DNA of 57,742 nucleotides from Ruminiclostridium sp. (GTDB taxonomy: Bacteria; Bacillota; Clostridia; Oscillospirales; Ruminococcaceae): NCBI GenBank assembly GCA_017625405.1, contig JAGALB010000057.1, positions 1 through 57,742 of the forward strand, in the 5' to 3' direction. The notes below the pieces were generated by a model. It was given only the letters and a program-made list of their open reading frames with translations, searched no databases and was not told the origin of the DNA. The translations under genes and the position numbers were made by a program. Shown piece after piece: positions 28,080-41,877 of this stretch. Numbering within the stretch: position 1 is the first letter of the stretch; every line of letters starts with the position of its first letter.

Positions 28080-31000
28080 GTGACTTTTACGGAAAATCTG
28101 GAGAAAGCAAAGGCAGGCGATAAGCGTGCCTACGGCATGCTGTGCAATCTGTCCGCAGATACCCTTTACGGAATTGCATACCTTTCCCTCGCAGACAAGG
28201 GCGACGCCGAAGCGGCGGTAAAAAACGCCTTTGACGACGGCTTCAGAGGAATAAACCGCATAAACGATGAAAATCATCTTCGTGCGTGGCTTTCCCGTGA
28301 GCTTACAAAGCATATAGTTGCAAAGCTCAAGGAATACCGTGCCGAAGAAAAATCCGTAAAAAGCGACGGTTCCCACGAAATGGACGTTTTCTGCCGTCTT
28401 GGTGACCTTGACCGCCTTGTTGCGGCTCTGGCAACGGGCTTTGGCTACAATGTAAAGGAAATCACTGTAATTACAGGCCTCAAGGAAGAAACGGTAGAAC
28501 GCAAAATCCGTGAATCCGATAAAAAGCTTGGTAAGGACAAGCAGATTACCGAAGATTTTCTCAGAAATGTAAAAGCTCCCGATTCGCTTATAACAAAGGC
28601 TCCCGCCGTTACCGACCTTACTGTTGAAATCGACAAGACAGACGATGACGGTCTTATCGGCGAAATGGAACGCATTGCGGCAATTGCCGAAGCGGAAGAA
28701 AAGGGCATCAGCCCCGAAGCTCCTGCGGAAGGCAATCCAAAGCTCATACGCTTCGAGCCTGTGAAATTCAGCGAAGAAGCTCCTGAGCCTTCTCCCGAAA
28801 AGGAAGAAAAGGAGGAGGAATATAAGCCCTCTATTTCCCTTGCGCCCAAGGCAGAACCCGAACCTGTAACGGCTGCACCTGCGGCTGAAGAAAAGCCTGC
28901 GGTCGAAAAGACAGCTGTTCCGACAGCGGAAGAACCCATCAAGGAAGAAACGGTCAAGGAAGAGCCTGTGGCACAAAAGCCTGTTTTCACACCTGCACCT
29001 GAGGCAGAAGAGCCTGTTCAGACCGCAGAAGCGGAGAAGCAGGAAACGAAAGTGGAGAAAGAGCCTGAACAGCCTGCTGTACAGAAGCCTGCTGAGCCGC
29101 CCCGAGAAATTGACGCAAGAACATTTATAAATGTAATTACTTCCCAGAAGATAAAGGGCAGAGATTTCCTGAAGCTTATGGGCAACACCCGTATAAGCAA
29201 CGAGGTTTATCGTGAAATCGAGCAGAATCCCAATCTTACCAAGGAAAGACTGGTAGAGCTGCTGGAAAATTCGGCGCTTACATCTGCGGATTATTACAAG
29301 GTGCTTACGGCAGTCAAGCAGCGCAATGAGCTGCTTGCGAAAAAGGAACAGGCCAATGTTCTTTTTGATATAAACAGCAAGAGGGAAGAAAAGAGCGGGC
29401 CTTCTCCCACTGATACCCGCGCTTTTGCCGCACCCGTAAAGGAAGAAGAGGCAAAAACCGAGCGTCCTCAGAAGGTGGATCCCACCAACTTTGATTTCGG
29501 AAAGAAACCTGAAAAGGAAAAGCTTTCCTTTGATTTCCCGAAAAAGAACGAGCCTGAAATAAAGCCTTTCATGCCCATACAGGACGTTGAGCCTGATGAT
29601 GAGGATGATGAGGATTTAGACCTTGACGACGGTCCTGTAAATCCCATAAAAATTCCTGCGCCGAAAGCTCCTGCCCCCAAAGTTCCCGAAGCTAAAGAGG
29701 AAGAGCCTGAAACACAGCAGCCCGTTCGTGAAAAATACAAGGGCAAGGAATTCTTCATTGACGACGACGTATATTATCCGGGCGTAAATAACGGCAAGCT
29801 GATTTTTGCCGCAGTGTGTGCGGTGCTTCTTGTTGCAGGAAGCTTCGGTATCCGTTATATGATGACAGGAAGCCTTTTGCCCGGCGCAGAAAAGGAGCCT
29901 ACTGTGGTTGTAGAAAGCTTACCCGAAACCTATGCTTCCGACGATGACATATACAAGGCTATGAGCCTTACGGAAAATGCTGTTACAAACCGCATTTCCG
30001 ATTATTACAGAGCTGACGCAAAGGGTTACAGCGAAGCGGTTACAAAGGATTTCTGCGAAACCGATGATAAAATCTACATAGCAGACGAAGACGCAGTAGT
30101 TGTTTATTCCCTTGACGCTGAAAAGCCCGAAGAGCTTTACAGAGTTGAAACAGAAGCCTCCAACGGCGAATTCCTCGGCTTTACCGCATGGGGCGACAAG
30201 CTTTGCATGCTTTATAACGGCACATATGATTATCCCATTTCATATACGGTAACCTCTTCCGACGAAGAGGGCAACCCCGTAACCGCAAACTATGAAGCGG
30301 TCATTTCCCGTGACTGTGTATACGCTGATTTTTATGAAAACGGCGAATACAGCAAAACCTATACACAGGACGGCAGATATTCTGCCGTGAAAACAACAGA
30401 CGAGGCATTCAGCCTTGCTACAACCGTGAATACTGCCGACGGCGCAGTAAGCGGCGTCCCCGAAACTTACCTCCCCTCCTATCAGCTTGATGAAAACGAC
30501 AGGGTGTATGTTGATTACAGCGTTATAACCGTTCCCGACGGAATCGGCTATAACGGCTTTACGGTAATCGGCACCGTAAGCGGCGAAGACGCACGTGCTG
30601 TTGCGGTAATGGGCGGCTCCCAGAGCTTTACTGAGTTCGGCGAAGGAACCTGCCGTGTAATTATCTCCGACAAGAACAAGACATATGAAGAAAACTTCCG
30701 TTTTGTAGGAAGCAATCTTACCCTTGACAGCACAAAAACATATGTCGGCGAATGCTTCGGTCCTCAGTTTGTGGGCGAAAAGGCGGCGGTAACATATCAG
30801 CCTTCCGACAACTCCATAAACGTAACAACCGAAAACGGCGCTACAAACTTTGTTATGGGCGCAGGCGAAACCCTCAGCGGCACAGCCTTTGAGGGCGATC
30901 AGGTGCATATTGTGACGCAGATGGCAGAGGGCACAATGCTCTACTGTGTGAATCTGAACGATATGCAGAACCCTGCTGAAGCAAAGCCCGATGCAATTTA

Positions 31001-31535
31001 CAGCGAAAAGCTGAAAGGCTACGGCACAGATGAGCTGCTGGGGCTTTCTGTAGAGGCTGACGAAAGCGGCAACCGCACAGGTTTACGCCTTTCGGTTTAC
31101 GGCTATGACGGAAAGCTCACAGAGAAGAGATATGTAACCATAACTCTCGATGAGCAGACAAGCACCGAGTATTTAAGATACCTTTCGGCTGACGCTGAAA
31201 GCTCAAACCTGCGTATCGCCGAAGACAACGGCTTTATAGCGGTTTCCACCGTTTATTTTGACGGAATTTCAGAAATCGAGCGTATTCTTTGCTTCAAGGA
31301 TGACGGCTCGGCTCTGACAGAAACCACTGACCTGCTTCTTTTCGATATCCAGTCGGATTATCGTTTCCTTACCTTCCGTGACGGAATGCTGTTTGTTATA
31401 ACCGACAGCAGAATTATCACCATTGACCCCGAAAGCGGCAAGGCACAGGGCTATTTCAGCTCTGACGAGCAGGAGGCAGTGACTGAAGCTGCTCCCGAAA
31501 CGGAAGAAAGCTCAGAAGAAAGCACCATAGAATAA
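28080..31535 (+). CDS. Sigma-factor-like domain fused via one membrane helix to a large extracellular region
   Basis: 1151 residues from a GTG start (GAGGTGAG upstream). Residues 1-90 resemble sigma-70 region 2 (LEKAKAGDKRAYGML, DKGDAEAAVKNAFDDGF, NDENHLRAWLSREL). Residues about 105-150 resemble region 4 (GYNVKEITVITGLKEETVERKIRESDKKLGKD). Both align with the true ECF sigma encoded next (NDENHEKAWLIR; GYSIREIASLLNVNENTVKSRL), but the sequence is degenerate. Next come an acidic Pro/Glu linker, a helical domain near 341-430 and a second acidic linker. One membrane helix lies near 571-596. About 550 extracellular, beta-rich residues follow with repeated Asp/Tyr-rich strands, possibly a C-terminal beta-propeller (PF09826-like). 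The tail is Glu/Ser-rich. Probably a membrane-tethered sensor or regulator; whether it binds DNA, RNA polymerase or the neighbouring sigma factor is unknown. Confidence 0.75.
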   Translation: MTFTENLEKAKAGDKRAYGMLCNLSADTLYGIAYLSLADKGDAEAAVKNAFDDGFRGINRINDENHLRAWLSRELTKHIVAKLKEYRAEEKSVKSDGSHEMDVFCRLGDLDRLVAALATGFGYNVKEITVITGLKEETVERKIRESDKKLGKDKQITEDFLRNVKAPDSLITKAPAVTDLTVEIDKTDDDGLIGEMERIAAIAEAEEKGISPEAPAEGNPKLIRFEPVKFSEEAPEPSPEKEEKEEEYKPSISLAPKAEPEPVTAAPAAEEKPAVEKTAVPTAEEPIKEETVKEEPVAQKPVFTPAPEAEEPVQTAEAEKQETKVEKEPEQPAVQKPAEPPREIDARTFINVITSQKIKGRDFLKLMGNTRISNEVYREIEQNPNLTKERLVELLENSALTSADYYKVLTAVKQRNELLAKKEQANVLFDINSKREEKSGPSPTDTRAFAAPVKEEEAKTERPQKVDPTNFDFGKKPEKEKLSFDFPKKNEPEIKPFMPIQDVEPDDEDDEDLDLDDGPVNPIKIPAPKAPAPKVPEAKEEEPETQQPVREKYKGKEFFIDDDVYYPGVNNGKLIFAAVCAVLLVAGSFGIRYMMTGSLLPGAEKEPTVVVESLPETYASDDDIYKAMSLTENAVTNRISDYYRADAKGYSEAVTKDFCETDDKIYIADEDAVVVYSLDAEKPEELYRVETEASNGEFLGFTAWGDKLCMLYNGTYDYPISYTVTSSDEEGNPVTANYEAVISRDCVYADFYENGEYSKTYTQDGRYSAVKTTDEAFSLATTVNTADGAVSGVPETYLPSYQLDENDRVYVDYSVITVPDGIGYNGFTVIGTVSGEDARAVAVMGGSQSFTEFGEGTCRVIISDKNKTYEENFRFVGSNLTLDSTKTYVGECFGPQFVGEKAAVTYQPSDNSINVTTENGATNFVMGAGETLSGTAFEGDQVHIVTQMAEGTMLYCVNLNDMQNPAEAKPDAIYSEKLKGYGTDELLGLSVEADESGNRTGLRLSVYGYDGKLTEKRYVTITLDEQTSTEYLRYLSADAESSNLRIAEDNGFIAVSTVYFDGISEIERILCFKDDGSALTETTDLLLFDIQSDYRFLTFRDGMLFVITDSRIITIDPESGKAQGYFSSDEQEAVTEAAPETEESSEESTIE

Positions 31536-31545
31536 GACAGAATTC

Positions 31546-31586
31546 CACCGCATAAGGGCATCGCCCTTATGCGGTGAAAATTTTTC
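31546..31586 (+). terminator. Intrinsic terminator
   Basis: Fourteen-bp stem CACCGCATAAGGGC / GCCCTTATGCGGTG with loop ATC, followed by AAAATTTTT. It separates the fusion gene from the sigma gene. Confidence 0.85.
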
Positions 31587-31594
31587 ATAAAAAC

Positions 31595-31603
31595 GCAACC
31601 TTT
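31595..31603 (+). promoter_or_regulatory. Possible ECF-type -35 element (GCAACCTTT)
   Basis: An AAC-core motif like the -35 element of many ECF promoters lies about 44 bp before the sigma gene. No convincing -10 (CGT-type) follows, so autoregulation is only suggested. Confidence 0.3.
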
Positions 31604-31646
31604 CCCCCTGCAAAAATCATTTACATATGAAAGGAGTGAGTGAATC

Positions 31647-32156
31647 ATGACCGACGAACAGGATATGCTTGAAAGGATATACCGCAGGCACTATCTGACC
31701 GTGTATCGCTTAGCGCTGGCGAAATGCGGCGGAAAACAGGAAAACGCCAATGACGTTTTCGGCGAGGTTTTTCTTCAGCTTGCGAAATATCTGAGAAAAG
31801 GCAGATTCTTCAACGACGAAAATCATGAAAAGGCGTGGCTTATACGTGTTACCCTGAACTGCAGCAAGGTAATATTCCGCACATATCTGCGCCCGTCGGA
31901 ATCCGTCGAGGACAAGGGCTATTATATCCCCGAAAGCGACGGAGAAGTCTATGAAGCGGTTATGCGGCTTTCGGAAAAGTATCGTGTTGTTATTCACCTT
32001 TTCTATTTTGAGGGCTATTCAATACGTGAAATCGCTTCACTTCTGAACGTAAATGAAAACACGGTAAAATCACGGTTATCACGTGCAAGAAAAATGATGA
32101 AAACCGATATTGAGCAGGAAAGGAAGGGAAATATATATGAACCCCGAAAAATATAA
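31647..32156 (+). CDS. ECF-family RNA polymerase sigma factor
   Basis: 169 residues. Region 2 is MLERIYRRHYLTVYRLALAKCGGKQENANDVFGEVFLQLAKYL and NDENHEKAWLIRVTLNCSKVIFR (to about 80). Region 4 is LSEKYRVVIHLFYFEGYSIREIASLLNVNENTVKSRLSRARKMMK (about 108-152). AAAGGAGTGAG precedes the ATG. The stop overlaps the start of the following membrane protein by 20 bp, the usual sigma/anti-sigma arrangement. Its target regulon is unknown. Confidence 0.92.
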   Translation: MTDEQDMLERIYRRHYLTVYRLALAKCGGKQENANDVFGEVFLQLAKYLRKGRFFNDENHEKAWLIRVTLNCSKVIFRTYLRPSESVEDKGYYIPESDGEVYEAVMRLSEKYRVVIHLFYFEGYSIREIASLLNVNENTVKSRLSRARKMMKTDIEQERKGNIYEPRKI

Positions 32157-33840
32157 AAATGAAATGTCCCGTCAGTATCCCGACAGAGCAATTGTGGAAA
32201 TTACTCTCGCTCAGGCGAAGAAAAAAGTTGTCCCCGAAAAGAAAAACCACCGCTTTTTAAAGACAGTGGGCGGCGTTGGACTTTCTGCTGCGGTGCTGGT
32301 GGGGGCATTCTTCGGTGCAGGCGCAGTAAGCGGTATGTTCAAGGAAATAAACACTGAGGAAGCGGACATTACAGAGGAAATCAAGGAAGTAAGCCCTGTT
32401 ATTTACGAGGAAGAAGCGGAAATTGACCGCATCGTGGCTACCGATGATATTCTTGCGGTAACTCCCCTGTCAAACCCCAAATATACCGTAAAAGCCAACA
32501 CCCCCGACGGCAAGGTTTCCCTTGACGAGCATACCACACCTGCGGAAATGCTTGCCTGCGGCGTAACGGTTGAAACGGACAACGGCATACTCGGCATACA
32601 GTATCTTTGCGAAGCCTTCAGGAACTACAAAAATATTCAAGGCTTTGAATTTATCAGGGCCGACGCAAGAACTTTAATGGGCGCAAACACCTATCACTAT
32701 TATAACTATGACCCCACAGCCCCCAAGGATAAACACTATAACTGGCACGACCCGCAGACACGCTGCGTTTACTGGTTCTACGACCACCGCTACGGTCAGT
32801 CCATAACAAAGCACAACGCAGGCATAGACTTTGCGGATATGCGGGGCACGCAGAACGGAGGCCTTGTAGCAATCACTATCGAAGAAGCAACTTTCATGAC
32901 AACGGATATAGGAATCCTCACTTCCTACGATACCTACGGCGTAACAGGCATGGATAAGGAGCTGCGTAAGGCACTTTATTACGAGGATGTCACCAAAAGA
33001 GCCGACACAGGCTTCCCGCCGTTCCTTAATATCATCTACAACGGACAGTGCGAGGGCAAGTACAGAATGAACCTGTTCCTCGAAAGAATCGAAAACGGCG
33101 CAGAATACGCAGGCATACAGTTCACTGATATAACTACCACTGACGAATATGACGAAAGGCTCTATTCTATCGAATACTGCCAGGGCGTTTACAGCATCTT
33201 CACCATGACAGACGGTCTTGACGGAAAGTTCGACACCCAGTATTTTGACGGTTATACGGTAGCGGACAACATGGTAGTTTTCGACAACGGCAATGTAAAG
33301 TACACCTTTATGTTAAGCGAGGATGTAAAAGCCGATACAGAAAAATACGGCGACATCCTTATGGATAATTTCTACGTAGGCTATGCGGTGGGCGTTACAA
33401 ATGACCTGCCCACAAACCTTACGCTCCACTATGACGCACCTTATGCGGATTCCTTATATGAAGAAAACGTGCTGGATATGATCGTTATTGACGAAGAAAA
33501 CTCCACTGAAGGATATAATGCGGTAAAGGTAAAAGGATACAATGCCTACGGAATGGGCGAAAACCGTGTAACAAATTATAAGCTGGAGATTAAAAGTGCA
33601 TTCCTGGGCACAAATAATAAGGGTGACAGATATTACCTTGGCGATGTAGAATGCTGGTCAGAAACAGACGCGCTTCATAATTCATTTGTTGAGCGTGACG
33701 GAGAAATGCTCCTTATGCTGACCGATGAACAGCTGGAAAAGCTGAAGAATTTTACTCCGTCTATTGTTCTTAACAGCGATGATATATCTCCTGAAAGGAC
33801 ATGGGAGCTGTCAGCGTGGGTATGTATGGACGAAAGATAA
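32137..33840 (+). CDS. Membrane protein in anti-sigma position with large extracellular domain
   Basis: 567 residues from the ATG at 32137 (AGGAAGGGA upstream). A cytoplasmic tail of about 40 residues (MNPEKYKNEMSRQYPDRAIVEIT, then AQAKKKVVPEKK) is followed by one helix at about 43-67. About 500 residues outside the membrane follow, rich in Tyr, Asp and Asn (TYHYYNYDPTAPKDKHYNWHD, YYLGDVECWSET). No zinc-binding anti-sigma motif is visible. Overlap with the sigma gene suggests a partner that holds the sigma factor via the short tail and senses something outside. The outer domain is not recognised. The end is at a terminator. Confidence 0.7.
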   Translation: MNPEKYKNEMSRQYPDRAIVEITLAQAKKKVVPEKKNHRFLKTVGGVGLSAAVLVGAFFGAGAVSGMFKEINTEEADITEEIKEVSPVIYEEEAEIDRIVATDDILAVTPLSNPKYTVKANTPDGKVSLDEHTTPAEMLACGVTVETDNGILGIQYLCEAFRNYKNIQGFEFIRADARTLMGANTYHYYNYDPTAPKDKHYNWHDPQTRCVYWFYDHRYGQSITKHNAGIDFADMRGTQNGGLVAITIEEATFMTTDIGILTSYDTYGVTGMDKELRKALYYEDVTKRADTGFPPFLNIIYNGQCEGKYRMNLFLERIENGAEYAGIQFTDITTTDEYDERLYSIEYCQGVYSIFTMTDGLDGKFDTQYFDGYTVADNMVVFDNGNVKYTFMLSEDVKADTEKYGDILMDNFYVGYAVGVTNDLPTNLTLHYDAPYADSLYEENVLDMIVIDEENSTEGYNAVKVKGYNAYGMGENRVTNYKLEIKSAFLGTNNKGDRYYLGDVECWSETDALHNSFVERDGEMLLMLTDEQLEKLKNFTPSIVLNSDDISPERTWELSAWVCMDER

Positions 33841-36883: not shown

Positions 36884-37117
36884 TTATGCTCTGTCCTTTA
36901 TTATCTGAGCCATTTCGCCTACATTCTTCATACCTGAAACCTCGCCCATTGTAAAGCGGATTCCGAACTCATCCTCAACCGCAGCCATAAGAGTGATGTG
37001 GTTAAGGCTGTCCCAGTCGTCAATGTCGTCTGCTGTTGTTTCTTCGTCCAGTTCAATATCCTCATCATCAAAAAAATCTCTGAATACGGTATTGAGTCTT
37101 TCAAAAATTTCGTCCAT
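36884..37117 (-). CDS. Acyl carrier protein
   Basis: 77 residues from MDEIFERLNTVFRDFF; GGAGGA precedes this ATG, and an in-frame extension upstream lies inside the preceding gene. The phosphopantetheine serine is Ser37 in DDWDSLNHITLM, followed by AAVEDEFGIRFTMGEV, a normal carrier-protein fold. It is strongly acidic. It begins one base after the stop of the FkbH-like gene, so translation is coupled. This is most likely a dedicated carrier loaded by the FkbH-like protein rather than the fatty-acid-synthesis ACP. Confidence 0.88.
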   Translation of the reverse strand: MDEIFERLNTVFRDFFDDEDIELDEETTADDIDDWDSLNHITLMAAVEDEFGIRFTMGEVSGMKNVGEMAQIIKDRA

Positions 37118-37118
37118 C

Positions 37119-38906
37119 TTAATTTTCCTCCGTGTTGATTCTGATATGCTTTGTATAAGGCTCAAAACCTGCTGTTTCAAGCTCCCATACAGTATTTCCG
37201 TTGTCGTCAGATATCTTTCTGAAGCCGAAAGAGCCGAACAATTCCTTTACCATGGCGTTTTTCGCCGTAGGATAGTAATATCCTTTTATTTTTGTGATGC
37301 CGCATTTTTTCGCTTCGCTTACCACGTTGTCCAGCATGGCGAATTCCATTTCCCTTTTGAGAACACGGCAGCTCATTATCCATAAATCAATATGTAAGGT
37401 ATCATTGTCCTTATGACCGATAACGACAGAAACTACCCCGTTATCGCCGAACTTGTCCGAAAGTCTGCCGTAAAGGGTTATATAGCTGTCATCCGAGGCA
37501 AGCTTTTCGATTTCTGCGTCGGTGTAGCGCCTTGTGGTGACGTTGAACTGGTTGCTCTTGTTGGTGAGCTGGGCGATTCTCTGAAGATAAGGCGGAGCAA
37601 AGCTCTTTATCTCTGCGGACATATCAAGGCTGTCCAGATATTCGCCGTAGTCGGAAAAGCTTTTCTGAAGGCTTGCACGCTGTGCGTTTGCCTTGTACAT
37701 TTCCGTACGTCTGCGGTCATCCTCAGACAGGGAAACAACTTCAAAATAGCGGTTTCTGTCCATAATCCGCACATAGTTTTCCGCCCCGTCCATTTCGGGT
37801 ACGGCTGTGCCCTTCAGCTGTTCACGGACAATCTCACGTTCCGCAGGGTTGTCGTCCGCAAAAACAAAGCTTTCAGGGAGAAGACTCAGCTCTTCCGCAG
37901 TTTCAAGGATGTTTCTGTCCTTGTTCTCCCAGTTTGCCTTTATAACCGTGAAATCGTCGGGCTTCAGGGTACCGTCAGGGTGGTTGAGCCCTGCTTCGGC
38001 ATTTTCATAATCGTTCTTTGAGCAGACCGTAAGCAGTACGCCCAGATCCTTGTGGAGCTTTATATATTCCTGGAACTCGGAATAAACCTGTCCCGAGGGC
38101 AGATCCATGCCGATTTTTATCTTGTCCGCACCATCATCGCCCACGACTCCGCCCCAGAGGGTGTTGTCAAGGTCAAGGGTGATTACTTTTTTATTTTTGC
38201 CGTAAATCGCTTTGATAATCGCCGCAAGGTTTGCCGCAAGATAAGGCACGGCAGGCAGGGCAAGTGCGTATTTGTACATCTGCCAGCTGAGGTTGTCCGC
38301 CCAGGCGTCAAGACCGTAGCAGGCGGAAACGTAGTTTATGTCGTTTATGTAGAATTTCTGTTCATTTTCCGCATATTCCGCAAATTTAAGGTTCAGCTCA
38401 TTTACCGTTCTTACTCTGCCGTGAATATCCGAGCAGTCGGAGTTGCCCAGAAGGCGGAAGGGCGGCTGTTCAAAGTTGTTCTGGATAATGGGACAGCCGA
38501 ACTTTTCCTTTAAGCTTTCCCACATCTGTCTGTAACGCTGAAACTCTCCGTCAATTGCCGCAAACGCATCCTCCCTGCTGTCTGTTACGGCAGGAAAACT
38601 GTTTATATTGCGATTTGTGGTGTGGATATAGATAAGGTCGGGGCTGAATTCCGTCAGCTCATGGGGCGGAAACATTGCGTCCTGCCAGTACTGACCGTAT
38701 TCGCTGATATAAAAAGACGGCTCAAGCCCATAGTTTAACAGGAATAATTCCAGCTGGTCGCATACAGCGTTTGCGGTAGAGCCTGCCAGCACGGCGATTT
38801 TCACGGGAATGCGCTTCACACCGTCATTTTTCATTTCCTTGCGCAGACTTTTCTGTTTTTTCAGCAGAAAGCCGCTGTCAAAGGGGTAGGTAAAAATATC
38901 CTTCAT
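37119..38906 (-). CDS. FkbH-like HAD-IIIC family protein
   Basis: 595 residues. An N-terminal domain (KIAVLAGSTANAVCDQLELFL, SPDLIYIHTTNRNI) precedes the HAD domain with VITLDLDNTLWGGVVGDDG near 238-256 (nucleophile Asp in DLDNT), LLTVCSKNDYENAE and FVFADDNPAEREIVREQ. A GNAT-like domain lies at the C-terminus (ITLYGRLSDKFGDNGVVSVVIG, MVKELFGSFGFRKI). FkbH enzymes take a three-carbon unit from 1,3-bisphosphoglycerate and attach it as glyceryl to a carrier protein. The adjacent ACP gene is the obvious partner. Preceding genes encode two DHHW proteins, pointing to surface-polymer modification rather than polyketide synthesis. Confidence 0.87.
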   Translation of the reverse strand: MKDIFTYPFDSGFLLKKQKSLRKEMKNDGVKRIPVKIAVLAGSTANAVCDQLELFLLNYGLEPSFYISEYGQYWQDAMFPPHELTEFSPDLIYIHTTNRNINSFPAVTDSREDAFAAIDGEFQRYRQMWESLKEKFGCPIIQNNFEQPPFRLLGNSDCSDIHGRVRTVNELNLKFAEYAENEQKFYINDINYVSACYGLDAWADNLSWQMYKYALALPAVPYLAANLAAIIKAIYGKNKKVITLDLDNTLWGGVVGDDGADKIKIGMDLPSGQVYSEFQEYIKLHKDLGVLLTVCSKNDYENAEAGLNHPDGTLKPDDFTVIKANWENKDRNILETAEELSLLPESFVFADDNPAEREIVREQLKGTAVPEMDGAENYVRIMDRNRYFEVVSLSEDDRRRTEMYKANAQRASLQKSFSDYGEYLDSLDMSAEIKSFAPPYLQRIAQLTNKSNQFNVTTRRYTDAEIEKLASDDSYITLYGRLSDKFGDNGVVSVVIGHKDNDTLHIDLWIMSCRVLKREMEFAMLDNVVSEAKKCGITKIKGYYYPTAKNAMVKELFGSFGFRKISDDNGNTVWELETAGFEPYTKHIRINTEEN

Positions 38907-38917
38907 CTGATATCCTC

Positions 38918-40201
38918 TCAGTAGTTCAGTAATTTTTCAAGGTAATTGCCGTTAGGCCCTGCGGCGGTAAAGGTGCAGACCGAAAACAGCAGGTCGGTTG
39001 CGTTTACGTCCTTGCAGAACTGCACGGCGTTCTTATAGAAATATCTTATATCGCAGACGTAGATTTTTTCAAAGGAGGAGGTAAGAAACGGCACAATGGC
39101 GTTTCCGTAGCTTTCCTTGAAAATAACAAGGGTACGTCCGTTCTTTACATCTGTTTCAATTTCCGCCACAACATTGTCAGCACCTAAGAATGAGCAGTAA
39201 TATGCACCTGCGTCGGGGGAAGTTATAAGCTTCCCTTCCCGTTTGCTTCCCATGTAGCCGTCATAGTAGGTGGTTTTCAGGCTGTTATTGTTGGGCGGGA
39301 TGTAAAGGTCGAACTGTTCGGGGTCGTTATAGATAAGCGGACTTTCCGTATACATATACATTGAGCCTACGAAGCCGCCTCTCGAAACCTTCTTGTAGTC
39401 ACCCAGCGGGGCAAAGGGTACATCAGCGCTGCGGGCAAAGCTCATAGCCGCATAATATCCTCCCAGCGGCATCCAGTGATGGTCGGTACGGGAGTATATG
39501 TATTCTCCTGTATGGGAAGCAAGTGCAGAATATGCATCCACATTGGTCACATCCTGAAGCCTTACCCTTATATGCTCGGCTTTTTTCCACTGGCTTGCCG
39601 TAAAGTTATCAAATCCGTCGGGCAGATAGAATTCCGCCGAGGTAGGCACAACCATATTGTATACATTCACATCCGGGAGCTGTCTTTTAAATTCATTTAT
39701 GCTTTCAGTCCAGCTTTCACACAGTCCGAAAGTGCCCCAGCAGGGCATAAGCGCCCAGTAATGTCCGTCAATATCGCATATCATAAGTCCGCTGTCATCA
39801 ATTTCCGCATAGCCGCCCGACATCACCTGTACCGCTTCGGGCTGTTTTTCCGTGGAAATTGCCTCGGTTACAGGCGGAAGAGTGGTTATATCGGTGCTTT
39901 CCGAAACCCCCGCCGTCGTATCGACGGTTGTACCGCCGATAAGGGTCAGCGGAATAGTGGTTTCGTAATGCTTTGTGCGGACGGTGGTAGTCACAGCGGT
40001 GGTAACCTCAGGCGTTTCACAGGTCGTGGTGATTTCTTCTTCCCCTGTTGTGGCGCTTGTGCCGTGGTCAGCGGCAATATACGCCATTATTCCCTCGGTG
40101 TCAACCGTTCTGAAGGTGACAACCTTTTCCTTTTTCTGACAGGCGGAGAGCATGGCTGTGCACATAAACAATGCAAGGCAGGCCGCCTTTTTATTCTTCA
40201 T
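38918..40201 (-). CDS. DHHW-family lipoprotein, SGNH/AlgX-like
   Basis: 427 residues. A lipoprotein signal (MKNKKAACLALFMCTAMLSACQ) has its lipobox Cys at 21. A Thr-rich linker (EITTTCETPEVTTAVTTTVRT) follows. The C-terminal 270 residues are a DHHW domain: YIYSRTDHHWMPLGGYYAAMSFA near 190-210, GGFVGSMYMY, and GRTLVIFKESYGNAIVPFL near 375-393, related to AlgX/AlgJ and DltD-like O-acyl transfer proteins. The first 11 bp overlap the end of the upstream DHHW gene. The two DHHW domains are clearly paralogous (both TDHHW..LG.YYAA, ICDMRYF-like ends and CTF.A.GPN). Confidence 0.85.
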   Translation of the reverse strand: MKNKKAACLALFMCTAMLSACQKKEKVVTFRTVDTEGIMAYIAADHGTSATTGEEEITTTCETPEVTTAVTTTVRTKHYETTIPLTLIGGTTVDTTAGVSESTDITTLPPVTEAISTEKQPEAVQVMSGGYAEIDDSGLMICDIDGHYWALMPCWGTFGLCESWTESINEFKRQLPDVNVYNMVVPTSAEFYLPDGFDNFTASQWKKAEHIRVRLQDVTNVDAYSALASHTGEYIYSRTDHHWMPLGGYYAAMSFARSADVPFAPLGDYKKVSRGGFVGSMYMYTESPLIYNDPEQFDLYIPPNNNSLKTTYYDGYMGSKREGKLITSPDAGAYYCSFLGADNVVAEIETDVKNGRTLVIFKESYGNAIVPFLTSSFEKIYVCDIRYFYKNAVQFCKDVNATDLLFSVCTFTAAGPNGNYLEKLLNY

Positions 40202-41819
40202 CGTTATCCTTTGTAGTGGTCTTTTTGGTTTTCTTTGTCTTCCTGGTGGTTTTTTCAGGCTCGTCCTCGGGGACGGTCGTCACCTCTGCCTCATCCTCCT
40301 CTGCCTCTTCGGGAGGAGTTGTTGTGGAGGTCTTCTTTGTCTTCTTTGTGGTTTCTTCCGCTTCAGGCTCAGGCGCAGTTGTGGTGGTTGCGGTTGCCGC
40401 CATAGCTTCAAGCTCTTCCCTTGTGGGGTTGTCCAGAACTACGTTAAGTCCGTTTGCGTTAGGACCTGTTGCAGAGAAGGTGCACATTGTGAATAAAAGG
40501 TCGGTAATGCCGTTTTCCTTGATGAATTCTATGGCGTTCAGGTCGAAATAACGCATATCGCAGACATAGATTTCTTCAAATGAGCCTGTATAGAAGGGCA
40601 CTTCCGCATTTCCGTAGCTGTCCTTGAAGATAAGCAGCTTTCTGCCGTTCTTTACGTCGGTTTCAATACGAACAATCTTCATATCGCCGCCCATAAAGGT
40701 GGAGTAGGAAGAGCCTACGGGCATATCAACGAACAGCGGGAATTCATAGTCGAAATTATAGGCTGTATCATAGTAATATGTATAGTACTTGTTGGAGGGC
40801 TTGTAGAAAACGAACTGTTCGGGGTCGTTCAGGATATTGACGCTTTCGGTGAAGGCGTACATTGTGCCTACATAGCCGTCCTTTACCACCTTTTCGTAGG
40901 TGGAAATATCCGCAAAGGGAACATCTGCCGCCTTCGCAAAGGCTTCTGCCGCATAGTATGCGCCCAGCGGCTTCCAGTGGTGGTCGGTACGCAGGTAGAT
41001 ATCCTCGTCTGTATGCTCCGCAAGTGCAGAAATCGCATCAACGGTGACAATATCCTCGTCAAGCTGGGAAGCTATGCTGTCAACGCTGTTTTTCTGAATT
41101 GCGTTATAGTCGGCAAAATTCGAGGGCAGATAGTACTCGCCTGCTGTGGGAGCAATCATGGTATAGATTTTCACATCCTCGCCCAGCTCTTCGTGGAAGC
41201 GGTTGAGGGCGGAAGCGTAGGTCTTGCCTTTTCCGCCGCCGAACAGGGAGATTGCCCAGTAATGTCCGTCATTGCGCTTTACAACAACCTGTCCGTTGGT
41301 GATAACGCCGTCAGCGATTTCGTTTATATTCTTTTCGGTAGTAACCGTTGTGGTGGTAACAGGCGCAGTTGTAACAGCGGTTGTGCCCGAGGGTGCAGCC
41401 TCACCGGCTGTGGTTGTGGTGCTTTCGGTTGTTACGGGGGCAACAACGGGAAGCTCCTCTTCCTCGATGGTTATGGCAACCAGCTGACCGTGAATTTCCG
41501 TATCATTCAGCTCTACGCCGTATAAACCCTTTATACCTGCGGCGATTTTCTTTATATCGTCACGGTACGGCACGGTATCGTCGTAGAATTCGGTTATTCC
41601 GTTGGTATATTTTCCGTTTATGAAATCTTCGTATGTAAATTCGGGGAAGGTAGCAAGGGTACGCTGTTCGATAAGGGACTTTTCAGGTCGTGGAAGAGCC
41701 AGCATAGCTACCGTTACCGCCCCGAAGAAAACTGCGGAATATATGATATTTGCAGAAGCGAAAACAGGCTTTAAGGGCTTTACCGTTTCCTTTTTCGCTT
41801 TTTTCTTTTTTTCCGCCAT
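40191..41819 (-). CDS. DHHW-family membrane protein with Thr/Lys-rich tail
   Basis: 542 residues from MAEKKKKAKKETVKPLK (AAAGGAG 7 nt upstream; a TTG 30 bp earlier is in frame but unlikely). A basic N-terminus is followed by one helix at about 23-42 (IIYSAVFFGAVTVAMLAL) and EQRTLATFPEFTYEDFINGKYTNGITEFYDDTVPYRD, a typical DHHW opening. A Thr-rich linker, then the DHHW domain with LRTDHHWKPLGAYYAAEAFA near 276 follow. The last 75 residues are unusual: Thr/Lys/Glu-rich with the pattern TT-K/R-KTKKT twice. It is the first gene of the surface-modification operon, under a strong promoter. Confidence 0.85.
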   Translation of the reverse strand: MAEKKKKAKKETVKPLKPVFASANIIYSAVFFGAVTVAMLALPRPEKSLIEQRTLATFPEFTYEDFINGKYTNGITEFYDDTVPYRDDIKKIAAGIKGLYGVELNDTEIHGQLVAITIEEEELPVVAPVTTESTTTTAGEAAPSGTTAVTTAPVTTTTVTTEKNINEIADGVITNGQVVVKRNDGHYWAISLFGGGKGKTYASALNRFHEELGEDVKIYTMIAPTAGEYYLPSNFADYNAIQKNSVDSIASQLDEDIVTVDAISALAEHTDEDIYLRTDHHWKPLGAYYAAEAFAKAADVPFADISTYEKVVKDGYVGTMYAFTESVNILNDPEQFVFYKPSNKYYTYYYDTAYNFDYEFPLFVDMPVGSSYSTFMGGDMKIVRIETDVKNGRKLLIFKDSYGNAEVPFYTGSFEEIYVCDMRYFDLNAIEFIKENGITDLLFTMCTFSATGPNANGLNVVLDNPTREELEAMAATATTTTAPEPEAEETTKKTKKTSTTTPPEEAEEDEAEVTTVPEDEPEKTTRKTKKTKKTTTKDNDEE

Positions 41820-41848
41820 TCCTCTTCTCCTTTCAGGGGTATATATCA

Positions 41849-41877
41849 ATTATATTATCTCTGTGTTTTGCAGTCAA
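41849..41877 (-). promoter_or_regulatory. Promoter of DHHW-FkbH-ACP operon
   Basis: On the minus strand TTGACT (41877-41872) and TATAAT (41854-41849), 17-bp spacer, 29 bp before the ATG. Confidence 0.8.

Follow-up and report, generated by a model that had tools for sequence, protein, structure and literature searches.

What becomes of a sigma factor that is covalently joined to a membrane-bound outer domain? This question is raised by a gene on contig JAGALB010000057.1 of Ruminiclostridium sp. (GenBank assembly GCA_017625405.1), of which positions 1 to 57,742 (57,742 nucleotides, referred to here as the window) were analyzed. The gene (28080..31535, + strand) is an open frame for a protein of 1151 residues, in which a domain resembling extracytoplasmic function (ECF) sigma factors is followed by a membrane helix and a large outer domain. 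Our preferred reading, to which we assign a probability of about 0.55, is that the protein joins a pseudo-sigma to the anti-sigma-type membrane protein that was its own partner, with the sigma fold kept as a protein-binding domain and an output without direct promoter recognition.

The N-terminal domain is related to ECF sigma factors

Residues 1-152 (28080..28535, + strand), covering sigma-2 and sigma-4, are an ECF sigma fold as judged by sequence comparison. A sequence-only reading of the window had called residues 1-150 sigma-like by eye, and the similarity proved to be well beyond chance by BLASTP, NCBIfam and profile comparison. In a single BLASTP comparison, this part was 25% identical to P0002, the ECF sigma factor encoded downstream (E 3e-9). 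It also matched NCBIfam TIGR02954 (E 2.5e-11) and SigW (3e-9), with scores far below the curated cut-offs of those models; the curated cut-offs for sigma families were not reached (17.9 bits against 42.9 for TIGR02937), and Pfam at E<=1 reported no sigma domain in the 1151-residue protein. Profile searches, which the sequence-only reading had singled out as able to dismiss the similarity, found both sigma-2 and sigma-4. A profile of 28 relatives matched SigW (5wuq, E 5.5e-14), aligned over sigma-2 and sigma-4 of SigH (5zx2, E 3.3e-10), and gave E 5e-24 in an hhalign comparison with 30 ECF rows, one of them in the wrong frame.

Fused and unfused forms within the genus

We searched 60 genomes, 36 of them from the same genus, including the window's own (G000). 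A homolog of some part of the protein was present in 35 of the 36 genus genomes and not found in G001, which is 86% complete. Eight genomes carry the fusion (G000, G002, G004, G007, G011, G015, G023 and G033); the G004 frame is split over the ends of two contigs and would fit a fusion. Another 18 have an unfused pair, in which a gene for a sigma-like protein of 152-178 residues directly precedes the gene for a membrane protein with a conserved cytoplasmic module of 79 residues. The gap between the two genes was 0-53 nucleotides in the 17 pairs measured, and in G030 the membrane protein is cut by a contig end. In the other nine genomes, the membrane protein is encoded without a preceding sigma gene. 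The sigma-type frame was open in all 26 genus genomes that have one.

The fused copies form one clade both in the sigma tree (support 100/99) and in the tree of the membrane parts (100/100). The sigma-less copies, 8 of 9 of which were included, also form one clade in the latter tree (100/99). If the unfused pair of G278, from another genus, is used as the outgroup, the pattern can be explained by a single fusion and a single loss; the root is assumed in this scheme. The neighborhood of the fusion, inspected by eye at six loci, contained no gene common to all. G002 and G011 share an upstream gene (71% identical), and G000 and G004 share parA, parB and serS near the fusion.

Other long sigma-type proteins were noticed in passing. 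In L129 (G017:C1, 1928-3817) and L130 (G021:C5, 2217-4349), a different fusion occurs in the genus, with an intact-looking ECF domain, a hydrophobic helix and, by eye, a leucine-rich-repeat-like end. The window's own genome additionally encodes, in L125 (G000:C38, 376-2094, minus strand), a frame of 573 residues with an ECF domain (TIGR02937, E 1.8e-13) and some 350 additional residues beyond it.

Origin from a two-gene unit

The outer domain probably is of a diverged PF09826 type (see below). Of 61 genomes sampled from the family, 21 had PF09826, and each of these has a sigma-type gene upstream of the PF09826 gene, with a spacing of -70 to +94 nucleotides in the 20 measured; in G367, a PF09826 fragment at a contig end is located some 400 nucleotides downstream of the sigma gene. 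These 21 upstream genes include one genus copy (G034), one degenerate copy (G332) and two sigma factors of other types. The ECF profile used for the upstream genes and the spacing, for the gaps in the unfused genus pairs and the sigma genes before module-bearing partners, and likewise for the P0003, P-x-x-L and canonical-PF09826 searches reported below, included one wrong-frame row (L106).

The family layout is a two-gene unit that pairs an ordinary ECF sigma factor with a membrane protein whose cytoplasmic N-terminus is short and whose single helix is followed by a PF09826 propeller outside. Relatives in which the two parts are separate genes show that the halves of the fusion were once operon partners. 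In this respect, the earlier description of a degenerate sigma factor covalently joined to an outside sensor held up, and the separate-gene relatives reveal where the two parts came from.

A sigma gene was also found upstream of a module-bearing partner in five of five cases from G412 and the four g32 genomes. G412, from another genus, combines an intact-looking ECF sigma factor with a partner that already has the module, and the g32 sigmas are partly degenerate. These genomes may represent intermediates between the intact unit and the disarmed sigma. Canonical PF09826 proteins (E below 1e-100) were found in six genus genomes, each of them sigma-less; the 26 genomes with a pseudo-sigma had none.

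In another genus, the sigma-like gene L168 (G332:C4, 567-1001) precedes a PF09826 gene and is strongly degenerate; the module was not found in the PF09826 partner. This possibly reflects an independent disarming.

Loss of contact residues and selection on the sigma domain

Region 2.1/2.2 of sigma factors is reported to bind the clamp helices of RNA polymerase, and sigma-4 helices to touch the -35 element (PMC7406223). We infer that positions 45, 49 and 161 (operon numbering) correspond to such contacts. The alignment used to compare them comprised 31 other ECFs, 19 sigma factors from the two-gene units (operon sigmas), G412, the 4 g32 copies, 19 free genus copies and the 8 fused copies. The operon group omits L154 and L157 (other sigma types), L168 (degenerate) and L172 (genus copy), and adds the genus ECFs of G010 and G021; the free copies are those of the 18 genus genomes plus G169.

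An acid at 45, an acid at 49 and a base at 161 occurred jointly in 19/19 operon sigmas, 20/31 other ECFs and G412 (1/1). The combination was absent from the g32 group (0/4) and from the genus copies, both free (0/19) and fused (0/8). Taken singly among the 27 free and fused copies, aspartate 45 and a base at 161 were never present, an acid at 49 was present in two and glutamate 45 in ten. The net charge of the recognition-helix stretch changed in parallel, from +2 to +7 in the other ECFs, +3 to +7 in the operon sigmas and +6 in G412, over +2 to +5 in g32, to -2 to +2 in the 27 copies. Asparagine 77 was present in 29 of the 31 other ECFs and in none of the 19 operon sigmas, and is uninformative on disarming because the operon sigmas already do without it. 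By this assignment, the sigma copies of the genus would have lost residues for contact with RNA polymerase (in region 2.2) and with the -35 element (in the recognition helix). Disarming would have preceded fusion, because unfused and fused copies show the same loss.

The sigma fold, judged from substitution rates, nevertheless is under purifying selection. For the sigma part, the ratio of nonsynonymous to synonymous rates (dN/dS) was 0.051-0.141 across five free pairs; two fused pairs gave 0.093 and 0.143 (the G000/G004 value has a dS of 1.65, near saturation). For the partner it was 0.155-0.201 in three pairs. Where both could be compared, the sigma value was lower in 3/3 pairs (0.141/0.155, 0.073/0.201 and 0.092/0.176 for sigma/partner).

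The P-x-x-L segment and the cytoplasmic module

Many unfused partners start with a stretch like [IV]P-x-x-L-x-P, and all eight fused proteins show AP-x-x-L or LP-x-x-L in the corresponding position, directly after sigma-4. In the 1151-residue protein, this putative anti-sigma segment spans residues about 155-176 (28542..28607, + strand). The nine sigma-less paralogs have no such segment, their module beginning at residue 1-33. The segment and the sigma domain are absent together, which suggests that they bind each other.

The module (residues 344-422; 29109..29345, + strand) was present in 35/35 genus membrane proteins. Its two halves are alike (hhalign P 1.9e-4), and we tentatively regard it as an internal two-fold repeat. 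Searches for its nature gave nothing convincing, with a best E-value of 0.016 in PDB (a cyclodipeptide synthase) and of 0.0016 in Pfam, the latter under the cut-off of the family concerned. An XRE/Cro or RodZ-like helix-turn-helix, suggested by eye, was not confirmed: against XRE domains from the window's own genome, hhalign gave a probability of 2% (P 0.021). That the module itself is the anti-sigma domain is disfavored because the sigma-less paralogs hold the module and not the P-x-x-L segment.

Module matches were found in 11/297 genomes of the family, 10/295 of the order and 3/391 of the class, in overlapping samples. Those in G447 and G898 are weak fragments; the G898 one contains a stop and comes from outside the family. 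Beyond the genus, full matches came from the four g32 genomes and G412, so that among the genomes sampled the full 79-residue module is confined to one bacterial family. As to a mobile origin, there was no plasmid match, and the pattern of the module retrieved no viral contig.

Layout of the fused protein

The frame has a GTG start preceded by AGGTGAG. Downstream of the P-x-x-L segment, the module lies between two linkers that are acidic and proline-rich by composition. Linker 1 comprises residues 177-343 (28608..29108, + strand; net charge -25 computed over residues 153-343), and linker 2 residues 423-570 (29346..29789, + strand; net charge -15). The single membrane helix was placed at about residues 571-596 (29790..29867, + strand) by hydropathy, with a peak of 2.25 at residues 573-591, and by alignment with relatives. 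The remaining residues 597-1151 (about 555; 29868..31532, + strand) make up the outer domain, predicted via homologs to be a diverged PF09826-type beta-propeller. Neither the 1151-residue protein nor six other fused relatives matched PF09826 in Pfam directly. Among the fused genomes, G004, the closest relative (52% identity over residues 340-1141), was the only one above the cut-off (E 6.9e-6, 25 bits versus 22.4), and the unfused homologs gave E 3e-14 to 1.5e-24. No receiver domain was found in the 1151-residue protein by Pfam at E<=1.

A terminator-like hairpin of 14 pairs followed by AAAATTTTTC lies 3' of the fused gene (31546..31576, + strand). It has the most pairs of any + strand site in a pattern scan of the 7.5-kb region, in which 24 sites were found versus 10.8 expected. 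The layout given by the sequence-only reading was right in its coordinates, the sigma part, the acidic linkers and the one helix; it had overlooked the module, the P-x-x-L segment and the hairpin.

Neighboring genes

Beyond the hairpin lies the gene of the ordinary ECF sigma factor P0002 (169 residues; 31647..32156, + strand), a neighbor outside the fused unit, followed by that of its membrane partner P0003 (567 residues; 32137..33840, + strand), a presumed anti-sigma factor that matched no Pfam or NCBIfam family. The 20-bp overlap noted earlier between these two genes is exact. Homologs of P0003 (E<=1e-5) were found in three of the 36 genus genomes (G000, G004 and G015), in G015 on a different contig from the fusion, and were missing from 5/8 fusion genomes and 18/18 unfused-pair genomes. 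P0002 and P0003 are probably a separate, ordinary ECF/anti-sigma unit. Co-occurrence of all three genes in related genomes, by which the earlier idea of a functional link could be judged, fails outside the three closest species.

Elsewhere in the window, a small acyl-carrier-like protein, an FkbH-like protein and their neighbors are encoded at 36884-41849 on the minus strand and by eye resemble a surface O-acylation cluster.

Possible roles of the fused protein

How the pseudo-sigma may have arisen and may work can be pictured as follows. The ancestral layout would have been an ordinary ECF gene next to the gene of a PF09826 membrane partner. In this lineage, the partner bears the 79-residue module, the sigma would have lost its polymerase and -35 contacts while retaining its fold, and a single fusion event then joined the two genes. 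The sigma fold would dock on the P-x-x-L segment of the partner, now in cis. The propeller might sense an envelope signal that changes this docking, via a conformational change or via cleavage near the membrane, and the output might be an altered protein interaction of the sigma fold, of the module, or of both, as in the sigma mimic PhyR. The mechanism would be that of a mimic rather than that of a sigma factor. These observations suggest that a former transcription switch now serves as a different kind of signaling protein. The stronger version, which we put forward more tentatively and with somewhat less than even confidence, is that in this lineage an ECF sigma/anti-sigma switch gave rise to a membrane signaling protein without a transcriptional role, the pseudo-sigma being disarmed while still separate, much as in pseudokinases, and then fused, with protein binding and the new module providing the output.

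Several observations weigh against a disarmed sigma with this history. The three-residue combination is also missing from 11 of the 31 ordinary ECFs, the acid at position 45 is kept as glutamate in 10 of the 27 genus copies, and Pfam still detects sigma region 4 in 17 of the 28 relatives (region 2 in 2/28; E<=0.01). In the sigma tree, long branches weigh heavily on where the degenerate sequences G278 and L168 are placed. The tie between PF09826 and sigma factors is also not strict. Of eight canonical PF09826 loci in the genus, seven have upstream sequence (the eighth, L182, abuts a contig end), and an ECF gene was seen in the fetched flank of two of these seven and not in that of L178, L180, L181, L183 and L198. 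The P-x-x-L segment, finally, is a short match sought with a loose expression. It was found in 17/21 free partners (the misses being three P-x-x-I and one wrong start) and in 19/20 family partners, several of these clearly spurious, with one spurious match among the nine sigma-less proteins.

The main rival explanation is that the protein still works as sigma and anti-sigma factor in one chain, like IutY or ECF52, and that regulated proteolysis, triggered by the signal, frees the sigma domain to drive transcription with altered residues. The order of parts is the same as in IutY and SCO4117, the sigma domain is under strong purifying selection, and the protein descends from a unit of sigma and membrane partner. 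We nevertheless consider this rather unlikely, as the contact-residue combination is gone in 27/27 genus copies, the unfused ones included. ECF-type promoters were, moreover, found upstream of 0/8 fused and 0/19 free loci (17 from the genus, without G030, plus G169 and G278), in a scan that is weak because it found a promoter at 4/21 operon sigmas alone (0.9 expected). The same selection on the sigma domain bears on another explanation, namely that the module, helix and propeller alone matter and that the sigma domain is a decaying passenger. One clade (9/36 genomes) does keep the membrane protein without a sigma gene before it, but the sigma dN/dS lies below that of the partner in every pair compared and the sigma frames are uniformly open, which makes a passenger improbable.

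The sequence-only reading had favored a decoy or co-sensor, by which the fused protein would set the availability of P0002 by competing for P0003. The genes adjoin, the two sigma domains are similar, and the three genomes with P0003 homologs all have the fusion. As a general explanation this was rejected, given the rarity of P0003 homologs and the terminator-like hairpin between the units, and control of the neighboring ECF by the fused protein is not borne out by the same results. The fused protein itself, moreover, carries a segment that matches its former partner, and we regard competition for P0003 as very improbable. It may still act as a decoy towards some other anti-sigma factor.

Comparison with known systems

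The sequence-only reading knew of no well-described system with this architecture. This was too strong, as IutY and SCO4117 (ECF52) are sigma/anti-sigma fusions. IutY of Pseudomonas putida (ECF243) is described as combining a sigma domain and a membrane anti-sigma factor in one chain (PMC5411451, PMC8999054). The protein studied here likewise has a sigma domain, a membrane helix and an outer domain in one chain, and unfused operon relatives. In IutY, however, the sigma domain is active after Prc/RseP cleavage, whereas the contact residues are lost in our fused protein; the sensor is also a different one, and the 79-residue module is not described for IutY. In SCO4117 of Streptomyces coelicolor, a sigma domain, an anti-sigma-like part, a membrane helix and an extracellular binding domain follow each other in the same one-chain order (PMC5826349). 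That source presents ECF52 as having zinc-finger and carbohydrate-binding domains, as exclusive to Actinobacteria and as retaining regulatory activity of the sigma domain, unlike the features found here (PMC5826349).

The unfused layout resembles Tt-RpoE1/Tt-TolB of Thermoanaerobacter tengcongensis, in which an ECF gene is followed by the gene of a single-helix membrane protein that also has a large TolB-like portion (PMC3397946). Residues 1-39 of Tt-TolB were found experimentally to bind the sigma factor, with an anti-sigma role (PMC3397946), and a partner of such a layout can therefore be an anti-sigma factor via its first 39 residues. That system differs in consisting of two genes with a working sigma; the likeness is one of layout. 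PhyR, in turn, has a sigma fold that acts through anti-sigma binding and not through promoters (PMC4598750), as proposed for the sigma fold of the fused protein. It differs in having a receiver domain and acting on NepR, while the fused protein is membrane-anchored, joined to its own partner and from another bacterial group. Nothing matching a disarmed fused sigma, or PF09826 paired with sigma factors, was found in the literature searched, in which subscription journals are thinly covered. Sigma/anti-sigma fusions are already known, and a disarmed one was not found in that literature.

In the known fusions, the released sigma domain is expected to drive transcription. The related genomes offer a graded series, from the intact unit over an intact sigma with module, partly disarmed and disarmed sigmas to fusion and loss. 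This makes it testable how a transcription factor becomes a pure protein-interaction domain, and what role an anti-sigma-type partner has once no sigma activity remains. Some proteins counted as ECF sigma factors in genomes of this kind may have ceased to be sigma factors.

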